Origin: Paenibacillus crassostreae | Lineage (GTDB): Bacteria; Bacillota; Bacilli; Paenibacillales; Paenibacillaceae | DNA: 64,000 bases | Assembly: GCF_001857945.1 (NCBI RefSeq) | Contig: NZ_CP017770.1 | Coordinates: 992,001-1,056,000, forward strand | Reading direction: 5' to 3' | Shown here: positions 37,528 to 41,871 of the stretch, piece by piece | How the letters are laid out: each line of letters starts with the position of its first letter | How positions within the stretch are numbered: the stretch's first letter is position 1 | Position numbers and translations under genes: made by a program | Notes under the pieces: model-generated | The model's input: only the letters and a program-made list of their open reading frames with translations | Databases searched by the model: none | Told to the model about the DNA's origin: nothing

Positions 37528-40500
37528 TTAATCTGCAATATAGATACCAACGGTTTTACCAGCAATCTCAACTTGTTCCATCGTTTCATTCGAACCAAAC
37601 AATAATTCACTCACTAACACATTTTCACGTAATACATGATTAAATGTAGTAATAGCTTCTTTCAGTTCGTCATCAACAGCTAACGTCAAGACAACACGCT
37701 TCTCAATCGGTAGATCCAATTTCTTGCGATAATCCTGAACCGCACGGATCACTTCGCGCACCCATCCTTCTTGTACTAGATCAGGTGTAATCTCAGTATT
37801 TAATGCTACTGTAATCCCGTACCCTGAAGCAGAGGCAAAACCAGATCTTGCCTGCTTATCAATTAACAATTCTTCAGGCGTAATTTGTAATTCATCACCT
37901 TCAGGAGAAGTTACATTTAGAATGCCAGATTGTACCGCTTCACGCGTTTCCTCTGCAGTCATACTCTTGAAGTGATTTTGCAGGAATCCAACATTTTTAC
38001 CATATTTTTTACCGCCAATTTTTAAATTAAGCTTGAGTGTTAGATCAACAAAACCGCTATCATCGCTTTCTGTAACGATATTCTTCACATTGATTTCTTC
38101 TTTGATAATATCCTCATATCCAGGTAGATTAAAACCATGATCAATCGAAACAATCAGTTCTGACAACGGCTGACGAGTCTTAATTCCTGTCTCATTACGA
38201 ACGTTTCGTGCAAGCTCAACAATACGACGTGCTGTCTCCATATCGCGCTCTAAAGCCTCGTCAATCAGCTCTTCATTCGCCTGAGGATAGTCATCTAGAT
38301 GAACACTATCCACTCCACCAAGATTCAGATAAATATCTTCAGCCAACATCGGTGTGAATGGCGCGATCAACTTCGCCGTCGTCATCATCACTTCCGTTAA
38401 TGTGCGGTAGGCATCCAGTTTATCTTCCGTAAGTCCACTTCCCCAGAAACGATCACGCGAACGACGGATATACCAGTTACTTAGTTCATCCACAAAACCT
38501 TCTATTGCTTTCGAAGCATTTAAGAAATCGTTCACAGCTAATCCTTTATCTACCGTCTTAATCAAACTGTTCAAACGAGATAAAATCCAGCGATCTAGCT
38601 TATGATTCGATAGTTGGAATGGATGTTTAGCAGCATCAAAACCATCTATACTTGCATATAGCGTTAAGAATGCATGGGTGTTAACTAGCGTATCCACCAA
38701 CTTAGATTTGGCTTCCCCTACGATTCCTTTGGAGAAGCGTTTGCTATTCCAAGGTGCACTATCAGATAGTAACGCCCAACGGAAAGCATCCGTTCCATAC
38801 TCTTCAATAATTTCCCACGGATCAATAACATTTCCTTTAGACTTAGACATCTTCTGTCCTTGCTCATCTAGCACATGTCCAGTCGCCATAACAGCTTTAT
38901 AAGGAGCTTTCCCTGTTAGAAGCGTAGATACAGCTAAAAGACTATAGAACCACCCACGCGTCTGGTCAATCCCTTCACAGATCATGTCCGCAGGATACTG
39001 TTGCTCGAACGTTTCCTGATTCTCAAAAGGATAATGTTGCTGAGCAAACGGCATTGAACCGCTATCGAACCATACATCAATTACTTCTGGTGTACGAGTC
39101 ATGATGTATTGCCCACAAGAACTACGTACTTTCACATCATCGACATACGGTTTGTGTAACTCTAAATTCTCAGGAACATCACCAATCGCACGGGCTCTAA
39201 GCTCTGCAATATTGTGTGGTGCGAACTGTTCTCCCGTTTCTTGACATATCCAAATATTCAGTGGTGTACCCCAATAACGGTCACGACTAATATTCCAATC
39301 CACCAAATCCTCTAGGAATTTACCGAAACGCCCTTCACGAACATGGCCTGGATACCATTCAACCTCATTATTGTTAGCAATCAATTGATCCTTAATCGCT
39401 GTTGTCTTAATAAACCAACTGTCCATAGCATAATACAATAGTGGTGTATCACAACGCCAACAGAAAGGATAACTATGCTCATATTTTTCTTTACTATATA
39501 GCATGCCACGTTCAGAAAGCATTTTGACAATATCGATGTCACAATCTTTAACAAAACGTCCAGCCAAATCAGTTACTTCATCAACGTAGCATCCTTGTAG
39601 ATTCACGACATTCACAAAACTGATGTCATTCTCTTTACATACTCTATAGTCATCTTCACCATGAGCTGGAGCTAAATGAACGATACCTGTACCACTAGCA
39701 TCTGTAACAAATTTCGCACCCAGAATCACATTAGATTTCTCTAATTGCGTGTAACTAAATGGTGCATCATACATTTGGCCAACTAACTCTGAACCTTTAA
39801 GCGTGCCGATGACTTCATACTCACCATGCATCACATCATCCACTAGCTTCTTAGCTACGATATATACGCCATCTGCTTGCTTCACACGCGCATATTCCAT
39901 TTCTGGATTCACAGCCAGCGCTACGTGTCCAGGTAAAGTCCAGGGCGTTGTGGTCCAAGCTAGAACATACTCACCACTATCATGTAACTTGAACTTCGCC
40001 GTAGCACTCAGATCTTTAACATCCTTATAACCTTGCGCAACTTCATGCGAGCTAAGCGATGTCTGGCAAGAAGGGCAGTACGGGCTAACGCGATGACCAC
40101 GATATAACAAATCTTTGTCATGCACCGTAGCTAGAATATTCCACACACTCTCGATGTAATTGTTATCCAATGTGATATATGGATCATCCATATTCGTCCA
40201 GTATCCGATCGCTTCAGTCAATTCACGCCATTGCTTCTCATAGACAAATACACTTTCCTTACACTTCTTAATAAAAGCTTCTACGCCATACTCTTCAATC
40301 TCATGTTTATGCGTAATTCCTAGTTGTTTCTGCACACCTAACTCAACAGGAAGACCATGTGTATCCCATCCTGCTTTACGTACGACACGATACCCTTTCA
40401 TCGTCTGATACCGACCAATGAAATCCTTGATTACCCGTCCCAGGACGTGGCCAATATGTGGCTTACCATTCGCTGTAGGTGGTCCCTCGTAAAATACAAA

Positions 40501-40617
40501 ATTAGGTTTTCCTTCACGGTGATCTATCGATTTACGAAACGTTCCTTCATCATTCCACTTCTTCAAAACGCGCAATTCTCTAGCGCGTGCCTTTTCTTTG
40601 ACATCGACTCTATTCAT
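37528..40617 (-). CDS. ileS: Isoleucyl-tRNA synthetase, long type-2-like
   Basis: IleRS (1029 residues) charges tRNA-Ile. The HIGH motif is in GPPTANGKPHIGHVLG (near residue 45-60) and KMSKSKGN is near residue 595-602, with the editing (CP1) domain between them. The N-terminal wording (AGWDTHGLPVELGVQKQLGI, YCPSCQTSLSSHEVAQGY) and the ~1030-residue length match the eukaryote-like type-2 IleRS rather than the ~920-residue type-1 enzyme of B. subtilis. Type-2 enzymes generally tolerate mupirocin. Regulation is by a T-box leader (41,527-41,810) that is separated from the start codon by a repeat island. Confidence 0.93.
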   Translation of the reverse strand: MNRVDVKEKARARELRVLKKWNDEGTFRKSIDHREGKPNFVFYEGPPTANGKPHIGHVLGRVIKDFIGRYQTMKGYRVVRKAGWDTHGLPVELGVQKQLGITHKHEIEEYGVEAFIKKCKESVFVYEKQWRELTEAIGYWTNMDDPYITLDNNYIESVWNILATVHDKDLLYRGHRVSPYCPSCQTSLSSHEVAQGYKDVKDLSATAKFKLHDSGEYVLAWTTTPWTLPGHVALAVNPEMEYARVKQADGVYIVAKKLVDDVMHGEYEVIGTLKGSELVGQMYDAPFSYTQLEKSNVILGAKFVTDASGTGIVHLAPAHGEDDYRVCKENDISFVNVVNLQGCYVDEVTDLAGRFVKDCDIDIVKMLSERGMLYSKEKYEHSYPFCWRCDTPLLYYAMDSWFIKTTAIKDQLIANNNEVEWYPGHVREGRFGKFLEDLVDWNISRDRYWGTPLNIWICQETGEQFAPHNIAELRARAIGDVPENLELHKPYVDDVKVRSSCGQYIMTRTPEVIDVWFDSGSMPFAQQHYPFENQETFEQQYPADMICEGIDQTRGWFYSLLAVSTLLTGKAPYKAVMATGHVLDEQGQKMSKSKGNVIDPWEIIEEYGTDAFRWALLSDSAPWNSKRFSKGIVGEAKSKLVDTLVNTHAFLTLYASIDGFDAAKHPFQLSNHKLDRWILSRLNSLIKTVDKGLAVNDFLNASKAIEGFVDELSNWYIRRSRDRFWGSGLTEDKLDAYRTLTEVMMTTAKLIAPFTPMLAEDIYLNLGGVDSVHLDDYPQANEELIDEALERDMETARRIVELARNVRNETGIKTRQPLSELIVSIDHGFNLPGYEDIIKEEINVKNIVTESDDSGFVDLTLKLNLKIGGKKYGKNVGFLQNHFKSMTAEETREAVQSGILNVTSPEGDELQITPEELLIDKQARSGFASASGYGITVALNTEITPDLVQEGWVREVIRAVQDYRKKLDLPIEKRVVLTLAVDDELKEAITTFNHVLRENVLVSELLFGSNETMEQVEIAGKTVGIYIAD

Positions 40618-40653
40618 GAATGATCATTCCTTTCAATATGGACTCCTGTAGAT

Positions 40654-40727
40654 ACCCAAAATTTCGTCGTAATTCTTACATAGATTGTTTTAAGTTTATT
40701 AGGAACGTATCCTCGCTTACCGCCTTT
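40654..40727. repeat. 74-bp direct repeat, copy A
   Basis: ACCCAAAATTTCGTCGTAAT... matches 40792-40865 at most positions with the same length and order. This copy ends close to the ileS ribosome site. Confidence 0.85.
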
Positions 40728-40738
40728 CAAGGAAGTCC

Positions 40739-40791
40739 ATCCCCCTAAGTCCCCCTTGCTAAGGGGGATTCCGAGGGCTAGCCCTCTGGAC
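40739..40791. repeat. Inverted-repeat arm near ileS
   Basis: TCCCCCTAAGTCCCCCTTGC..., ending AGCCCTCTGGAC. It pairs with the reverse complement of 41460-41514 at roughly four of five positions, and contains two small palindromes itself. Confidence 0.8.
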
Positions 40792-40865
40792 ACCCAAAAT
40801 TTGGTCGGAATTGTTACATAGATTGTATTAAGTTTATTTGGAGCGTATCCTCGCTTACCACCTTT
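40792..40865. repeat. 74-bp direct repeat, copy B
   Basis: Same order and length as copy A at 40654-40727 with scattered base changes; it lies just inside the inverted-repeat arm. Confidence 0.85.
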
Positions 40866-40912
40866 TGCTAGCAAAAGGCCCGCTTACTTACATTTGTCTG
40901 TTGCGACTTCCA

Positions 40913-41425
40913 CTCTTTCGTCCGTTGCCCTGCACCGAAGTATCAACTTCTCATAGGTGGAAGACACCGTTGACGTTCCCGTAGGGGAGTCGAGAACGGG
41001 GAATTCTACCTACTCGAATGTAACTCGAGTGCGTCACTGACCCTCTTTCGTCCGTTGCCCTGAACCGAAGCATCTCCATCGTCGTAGGTGGAAGATCCCG
41101 TTGACGTTCCCGTAGGGGAGTCGAGGACAGGGATTTCCACCTACTCGAATGTAATTCAGGGCGAAACTGTCCCTCTTTCGTCTGTTGCACTGCGTCGAAG
41201 CATCTCCTTCGCCATAGGTGGAAGATCCCGTTGACGTCCCCGTAGGGGAGTCGAGGACAGGGATTTCCACCTACTCGAATGTAACTCAGGTGCGACGCTG
41301 TGGCCCTCCATAGATAGTGAGTGCGGCCGCGCGAAGTGGCTAGGCACTCCTCGTATGGAAGGTGACCGAGTGATCCCGAAGGGGAGTCGAGGAAGTACCG
41401 CTCGCACCTCCACCGTCACTCCTCT
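40913..41425. repeat. Tandem 130-bp hairpin repeats, three copies plus a degenerate fourth
   Basis: The word CTCTTTCGTCCGTTGC recurs at 40913, 41043 and 41173, a period of exactly 130. Each unit contains TAGGTGGAA...TTCCACCTA around a GGGGAGTCGAG core, so each can fold into a long hairpin. The stretch 41303-41425 resembles a decayed fourth unit. ORFs across it are repeats of the same peptide words and are not credible genes. Confidence 0.85.
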
Positions 41426-41459
41426 CCACCCACTAACTCCTTCCACCAAACTTTCAGGC

Positions 41460-41514
41460 GTCCAGAGGGCAGGCCCTCTGGGGTCCCCCTTCTTAAGGGG
41501 GATTTAGGGGGATC
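41460..41514. repeat. Inverted-repeat arm near the T-box
   Basis: CGTCCAGAGGGCAGGCCCTC..., ending TTTAGGGGGA. It is the reverse complement counterpart of 40739-40791 and begins directly after the T-rich end of the T-box terminator on the minus strand. Confidence 0.8.
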
Positions 41515-41526
41515 AAAACAACATAA

Positions 41527-41810
41527 ATAAGCCCCATCCCCAAAGGGACGAGACTTTAGCTCGCGTTACCACCCTAATTTCGCTCATTAAAAAAACTTAA
41601 TCAGCGACTCCTCAAGTCTATGATGAACTTACCAACATAGAGCCGTTATAACGTTCGGCAGTCCGGTTCAGCTTACACACGTTAGTGACGTTTCAGCTTC
41701 ACTTCTCCGGGAGGATCTTCCACATAAGGTCTGAACATTGGCTCTCAGCAATTCGCCAACTCTCTAAAGAACAGCTCCTCAAGGTACTTATCCCATCATC
41801 AAATCTATTT
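41527..41810 (-). promoter_or_regulatory. T-box leader of ileS
   Basis: The minus strand carries AGGGTGGTAACGCG (T-box bulge motif, 41574-41561), Stem-I-like GAGAGTTGGCGAATTGCTG AGAGCC, a candidate Ile specifier ATC at 41716-41714 in GAAGATCCTCC, and a terminator CTCGTCCC-TTTG-GGGATGGGG with a weak T-rich tail. Uncharged tRNA-Ile would favour antitermination. The gene it controls lies nearly 900 bases further on. Confidence 0.85.
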
Positions 41811-41842
41811 AGTCCAATCAGAAAAATCATATTATGAGTATA

Positions 41843-41871
41843 GTTATAGCTTTTTTTCGCAAAAAAGTCAA
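41843..41871 (-). promoter_or_regulatory. Promoter of the ileS T-box transcript
   Basis: TTGACT (41871-41866), a 17-base spacer and TATAAC (41848-41843) match the vegetative sigma-A consensus well. It lies about 30 bases upstream of the T-box leader. Confidence 0.75.

Follow-up and report, generated by a model that had tools for sequence, protein, structure and literature searches.

The window examined here is a 64,000-nucleotide stretch of the Paenibacillus crassostreae genome (contig NZ_CP017770.1), and all coordinates below are positions within it. It contains ileS on the minus strand (37528..40617; Pfam tRNA-synt_1 and Anticodon_1), with its ATG at 40,617, and, upstream on the same strand, a T-box leader (41541..41808) that matches the Rfam covariance model RF00230 over all 219 of its positions (1-219) with 96.3 bits against a gathering score of 93. 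The leader appears to be of the Ile type, judging by an ATC at 41,714-41,716 that stands in specifier context by eye both here and in the relative L055, the pattern being too strict for most relatives. A predicted leader promoter was read from the sequence, with a -35 box TTGACT (41866..41871, minus strand) and a -10 box TATAAC (41843..41848, minus strand) separated by a spacer of 17 nt, and a promoter and terminator scan placed the T-box terminator hairpin at 41529..41556 (minus strand), with an interrupted U-tract, TTATTTATGTTGTTTTG, at 41514..41530 (minus strand; U-score 3.59, longest T run 4). The window also has a PyrR binding site (RF00515; 32932-33107, minus strand; 64 bits), an ordinary pyr attenuator.

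This full-length Ile T-box is separated from ileS by a non-coding stretch of about 910 nt that consists of repeats rich in hairpins, and the antiterminator motif GGGTGG is 957 nt from the ileS ATG. The genome has 22 T-box matches, and since most of the others could be measured to a following ORF and these are at 46-253 nt, ileS is a distance outlier. The preliminary description of this locus, which had reported an intact T-box separated from ileS by an unusually long gap of about 900 bp, is borne out on both counts.

The island has a G+C content of 53%, against 41% for the window, and is a composite structure. On the T-box side it begins with a conserved palindromic end of two hairpins (41449..41513, plus strand; model R1, E = 2.2e-16), which alignment A1 places in inverted orientation to the right end, followed by a left module (41296..41448, minus strand) with a hairpin of the CTCCCC..GGGGA type that is comparable to those of relatives. 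Next comes a tandem hairpin array of 2.9 copies of 130 bp (40913..41295, minus strand; TRF score 580), which has no other copy anywhere in the 4.76-Mb genome, and then a right-module hairpin, AAGCGGGCC..TAAGCGAGGATACGCTCC (40840..40885, minus strand), that recurs in relatives. The right conserved palindromic end (40739..40802, minus strand; model R1, E = 1.1e-15) comes after that, and an 83-bp direct duplication has its two copies at 40783..40865 and 40645..40727 (both minus strand; repeat search D2, 88%). The second copy lies between the right end and ileS and puts that end 121 nt from the ATG, whereas P. macquariensis and P. glacialis have it at 34-39 nt. The tandem hairpins and inverted arms noted earlier are thus real, while the supposed 74-bp duplication immediately downstream of the T-box terminator proved to be an arm of an inverted pair of C-rich palindromes (41,441-41,513 and 40,739-40,810; 74 columns, 81%) and no direct repeat, the direct copy that does exist being 83 bp long and adjoining ileS. 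As had also been anticipated, the leader would be strongly structured if read through, the 918-nt leader fold scoring z = -8.2 against 20 shuffles.

To place this arrangement in the genus, we surveyed 3 kb upstream of ileS in 93 same-genus genomes, 90 of which gave a usable, complete leader. The distance from the motif to the ATG was 294-1,395 nt in about 68 of the 90 leaders and 76-147 nt in 22, the long class including two leaders (L059 and L062) with a different insert. Islands range from roughly 0.2 to 1.3 kb of fast-changing hairpin repeats, and named carriers include P. macquariensis, P. glacialis, and P. antarcticus (89% IleS identity). The island is therefore not peculiar to P. crassostreae but a feature of the genus. 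The spacing is not the same in all relatives, the alternative that the preliminary description had raised together with a coding gene inside the gap; it ranges between 76 and 1,395 nt, and no gene lies within it. Candidate genes in the P. crassostreae island came down to short ORFs, with no Pfam match above the cut-off and no foreign domain. In Saccharibacillus, Cohnella, Halobacillus, and most other Paenibacillus, the T-box motif is 75-185 nt from the ATG, and two outgroups have long gaps of their own, one being the P. pabuli/xylanexedens group, whose gap combines the right end with a different array.

The second of these outgroups, Halobacillus dabanensis (L224), carries an unrelated tandem repeat in its T-box-ileS gap, about 570 nt upstream of ileS, which suggests that repeats are tolerated at this position outside Paenibacillus as well. 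Different inserts were also seen between T-boxes and valS (L337 in genome G003, a gap of 440 nt) or alaS (L356 in genome G046, a gap of 307 nt), so that T-box gaps occasionally accept insertions. In Paenibacillus sp. 2.1 (L188), the nearest T-box motif found is 2,048 nt upstream of ileS.

Across the islands it is the ends that are conserved. The left end follows the U-tract directly and reads ATCCCCCTAAATCCCCCTT-n-AAGGGGGACCCC(AG)AGGGC-n-GCCCTCTGGAC, and the right end is its mirror, terminating in AAGGGGGATTTAGGGGGAT just upstream of the ileS ribosome-binding region; where a right end is recognised, its distance to the ATG is 24-65 nt in most relatives. The lineage-specific tandem arrays of mini-hairpins between them are unrelated between clades. 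In some species (L126, L120, and L110) the island has turned into one large inverted repeat, and in some islands the inverted terminal repeats are absent or replaced. One large clade has altered the right-end stem on both sides, from CCCCC/GGGGG to CCCTCCC/GGGAGGG. A three-way concerted change is seen in right ends such as those of L089 and L107, where the free 3' tail has changed along with the stem, GGGGGAT-TTAGGGGGAT becoming GGGAGGG-TTTGGGAGGGAT. When left-right pairing was examined for selection, no clear within-genome excess was found (median rank 0.49, permutation 0.05).

The presence of the island tracks a species tree built from DivIVA, YlmH, YggT, and IleS-N, requiring 10 Fitch changes against a mean of 32.4 and a minimum of 24 in 1,000 shuffles. 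At least six apparent independent losses were counted; in three lineages remnants are left behind (L056, L137, and a solo palindrome in L088/L104), which mark losses through deletion or through recombination between the ends, and the T-box survives the loss. By these sequence criteria the island at ileS is old and mainly vertically inherited.

The ends are not confined to ileS. A 66-nt model of them (R1) run against 14 genomes found two copies in P. crassostreae, both in the ileS island. In most of the remaining genomes the count was 1-12; G084 had none, and G051, an 8.5-Mb same-genus genome, had 67. The other sites are gene borders, often within operons, and include cdd-era, hisA-hisF, ffh-rpsP, uvrB-uvrA, purF-purM, dinG-rex, and the zinc ABC genes, gene names having been assigned by reading ORFs. 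G051 has 44 right ends: 32 point towards a start codon and the other 12 towards the stop codon of a convergent gene, in many cases at a distance of about 5 nt. Because of these 12 we rejected the idea of a start-codon-specific leader element. Several of the G051 copies that were read (among L261-L264 and L272-L311) are preceded by hairpin repeats of about 42 nt (GCATTCCGNAGGAACAGCC), and copies and repeats together look like a recent expansion. No mobilising enzyme or autonomous partner element was seen at the inspected sites, and a plasmid origin was dismissed, with one match of 62 nt between the palindrome and a P. cellulosilyticus record. Taken together, a presence that follows the tree, the remnants, and the ends at other gene borders point to an inherited intergenic mosaic-repeat element of the REP/BIME type.

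Carriers of the island also differ in the T-box terminator. The ileS U-tract is weaker with the island than without it (median U-score 4.1 versus 5.23; longest T run 4 versus 7), and a phylogenetic regression of the U-score over 100 tips (lambda 0.9) put the effect of the island at -0.67 (p = 4e-5), with the same outcome for T-run length, a result that rests on one tree from short proteins and on a measure devised after the pattern was seen. GC bias was discarded as the source of the weak U-tracts, as GC and GC3 had no effect in the regression and the valS and alaS controls were flat: in 15 island and 15 island-free genomes, these T-boxes did not differ (p = 0.77 and 0.68), whereas the ileS T-boxes of the same 30 genomes did (p = 4.5e-4). 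The tRNA-sensing part was complete in all 15 island genomes tested. Insertion in itself does not break the U-tract, since the island-bearing P. antarcticus group retains T7. The coupling of island and U-tract is a correlation; it suggests that the attenuator has evolved under relaxed selection or in compensation, and with a weaker U-tract the behaviour of the ileS leader may have changed too.

Our results lead us to favour, with reasonable though not full confidence, the explanation that the island is an inherited, non-coding composite repeat tolerated in the T-box-ileS gap, where it acts as a passive structured spacer. An element in which two inverted ends of about 66 nt, each a double palindrome, flank tandem hairpin arrays would have entered the gap before most of the genus split, and expansion and turnover of its arrays would take place at the DNA level. 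It would persist because the gap tolerates an insert that touches neither the upstream T-box nor the downstream ribosome site. ileS would then be transcribed by T-box read-through across the island, whose RNA probably folds on itself, with ends able to pair, and serves as no more than a structured spacer. The weaker U-tract of carriers could be a relaxed or compensatory change in attenuation, for example one that restores read-through against the cost of a long leader; weaker terminators may have accumulated either because expression is already held down by the long leader or as a counterweight to this restriction. Two observations count against simple tolerance: the island has been kept at one spot genus-wide with conserved ends, and could therefore have a function, and a U-tract coupling specific to ileS is not predicted by plain neutrality unless selection was relaxed or compensatory.

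The strongest competing explanation gives the island a function as a second layer of control: once the T-box has been read through, the long structured RNA would attenuate ileS at the level of transcription or translation, so that the T-box terminator was free to weaken and control is shared. The U-tract is weak at ileS alone and with the island alone, the leader is structured far above shuffled sequences (z = -8.2), and the ends are conserved though the arrays vary. Against it stand at least six apparent independent losses and the recurrence of the same element beside unrelated genes and beside stop codons; terminator-like sites on the transcribed strand occur in just 3 of 71 islands, and the right end of an island pairs with its own left end no better than with foreign ones. 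We consider this explanation unlikely. A somewhat less doubtful, but still tentative, variant is that an inherited island has remodelled the attenuator across the genus, with the tRNA sensor kept, the U-tract decaying, and control of ileS now shared by T-box termination and the structured island.

The preliminary description had left the choice between a second layer of control and a tolerated insertion. The former stays conjectural, the P. crassostreae island having no promoter or conserved coding sequence of its own, no terminator besides that of the T-box, no second T-box, and no co-evolution of its ends. The tolerated insertion is the better supported reading, with an element that is found at unrelated borders, is inherited, expands, and can be lost without destruction of the T-box; to this we would add its great age, its spread through the genus, and its link with the decay of the attenuator's U-tract.

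If ileS were driven by a second promoter, located within the island or behind it, the T-box would be a relic. The weak U-tract and the 900-nt gap speak for this, and the preliminary description had proposed a search near 40,640 and named a strong promoter between 40,618 and 41,500 as refuting its reading. In the transcribed direction, the island yielded one weak 9/12 match, which overlaps the ileS start codon, and no other; genus-wide, a promoter-like site was found in 1 of 71 islands, and the T-box sensor is full-length in all 15 genomes tested, all of which makes this explanation very improbable. Slightly less credible still is the idea that the leader gives rise to a structured non-coding RNA or riboregulator of an undescribed kind. 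The very stable fold and the compensatory changes in the right-end stem speak for it, but no Rfam family reached its gathering threshold, the arrays are unrelated between clades, and the end sequence occurs in both orientations relative to transcription, so that DNA-level repeats suffice to explain the palindromes. Second T-boxes and other Rfam RNAs in the island gave sub-threshold matches only, and the best of these, to the Pseudomonas sRNA P10 (E = 1.8e-4, 28 bits versus 37, on the opposite strand over the array), was put down to a chance hairpin match. An assembly artefact or local misassembly, which tandem repeats might invite, is scarcely credible given that the architecture recurs in dozens of separately assembled genomes, several of them single-contig.

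The genus provides a natural comparative series, with the island present, truncated, reduced to a solo palindrome, or cleanly lost, for testing how a riboswitch is affected by a long structured insert, and if the decay of the terminator is an answer to the island, repeats and an RNA attenuator would be evolving together. In the openly accessible literature, subscription papers lying outside the scope, we found no report that joins Paenibacillus, T-box, and ileS or that describes these repeats, which apparently form a family of composite repeats in Paenibacillus intergenic regions that has not been catalogued before.

Among known systems, REP, BIME, and REPIN sequences with their RAYTs are short extragenic palindromes that form inverted pairs and mosaic arrays (PMC3116915, PMC2817692, PMC3733652), and our element fits a REP/BIME-like mosaic repeat: an extragenic palindromic unit in inverted pairs (inverted at ileS in alignment A1), mosaic arrays, intergenic location, and species-specific expansion. 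It differs in copy number, with two copies in its own genome and 67 in G051; in an end unit of about 66 nt with two palindromes, long tandem arrays, and positions that are stable across the genus; and in that no RAYT/Y1 transposase was found in P. crassostreae, the search for PF01797 giving no match in G000 or G008. Y1 genes are present in other genomes, where their RAYT identity is only putative. Like MITEs and other non-autonomous transposable elements, the island has inverted terminal repeats and no gene; unlike them, it has no partner transposase identified at the sites inspected, its interior is not conserved, and its inheritance at ileS is mainly vertical. The leader itself resembles other aminoacyl-tRNA synthetase T-boxes (RF00230) in having a complete sensor, antiterminator, and terminator hairpin, and stands apart from them in a degraded U-tract and in a motif-to-ATG distance of 957 nt where others have about 50-250 nt.
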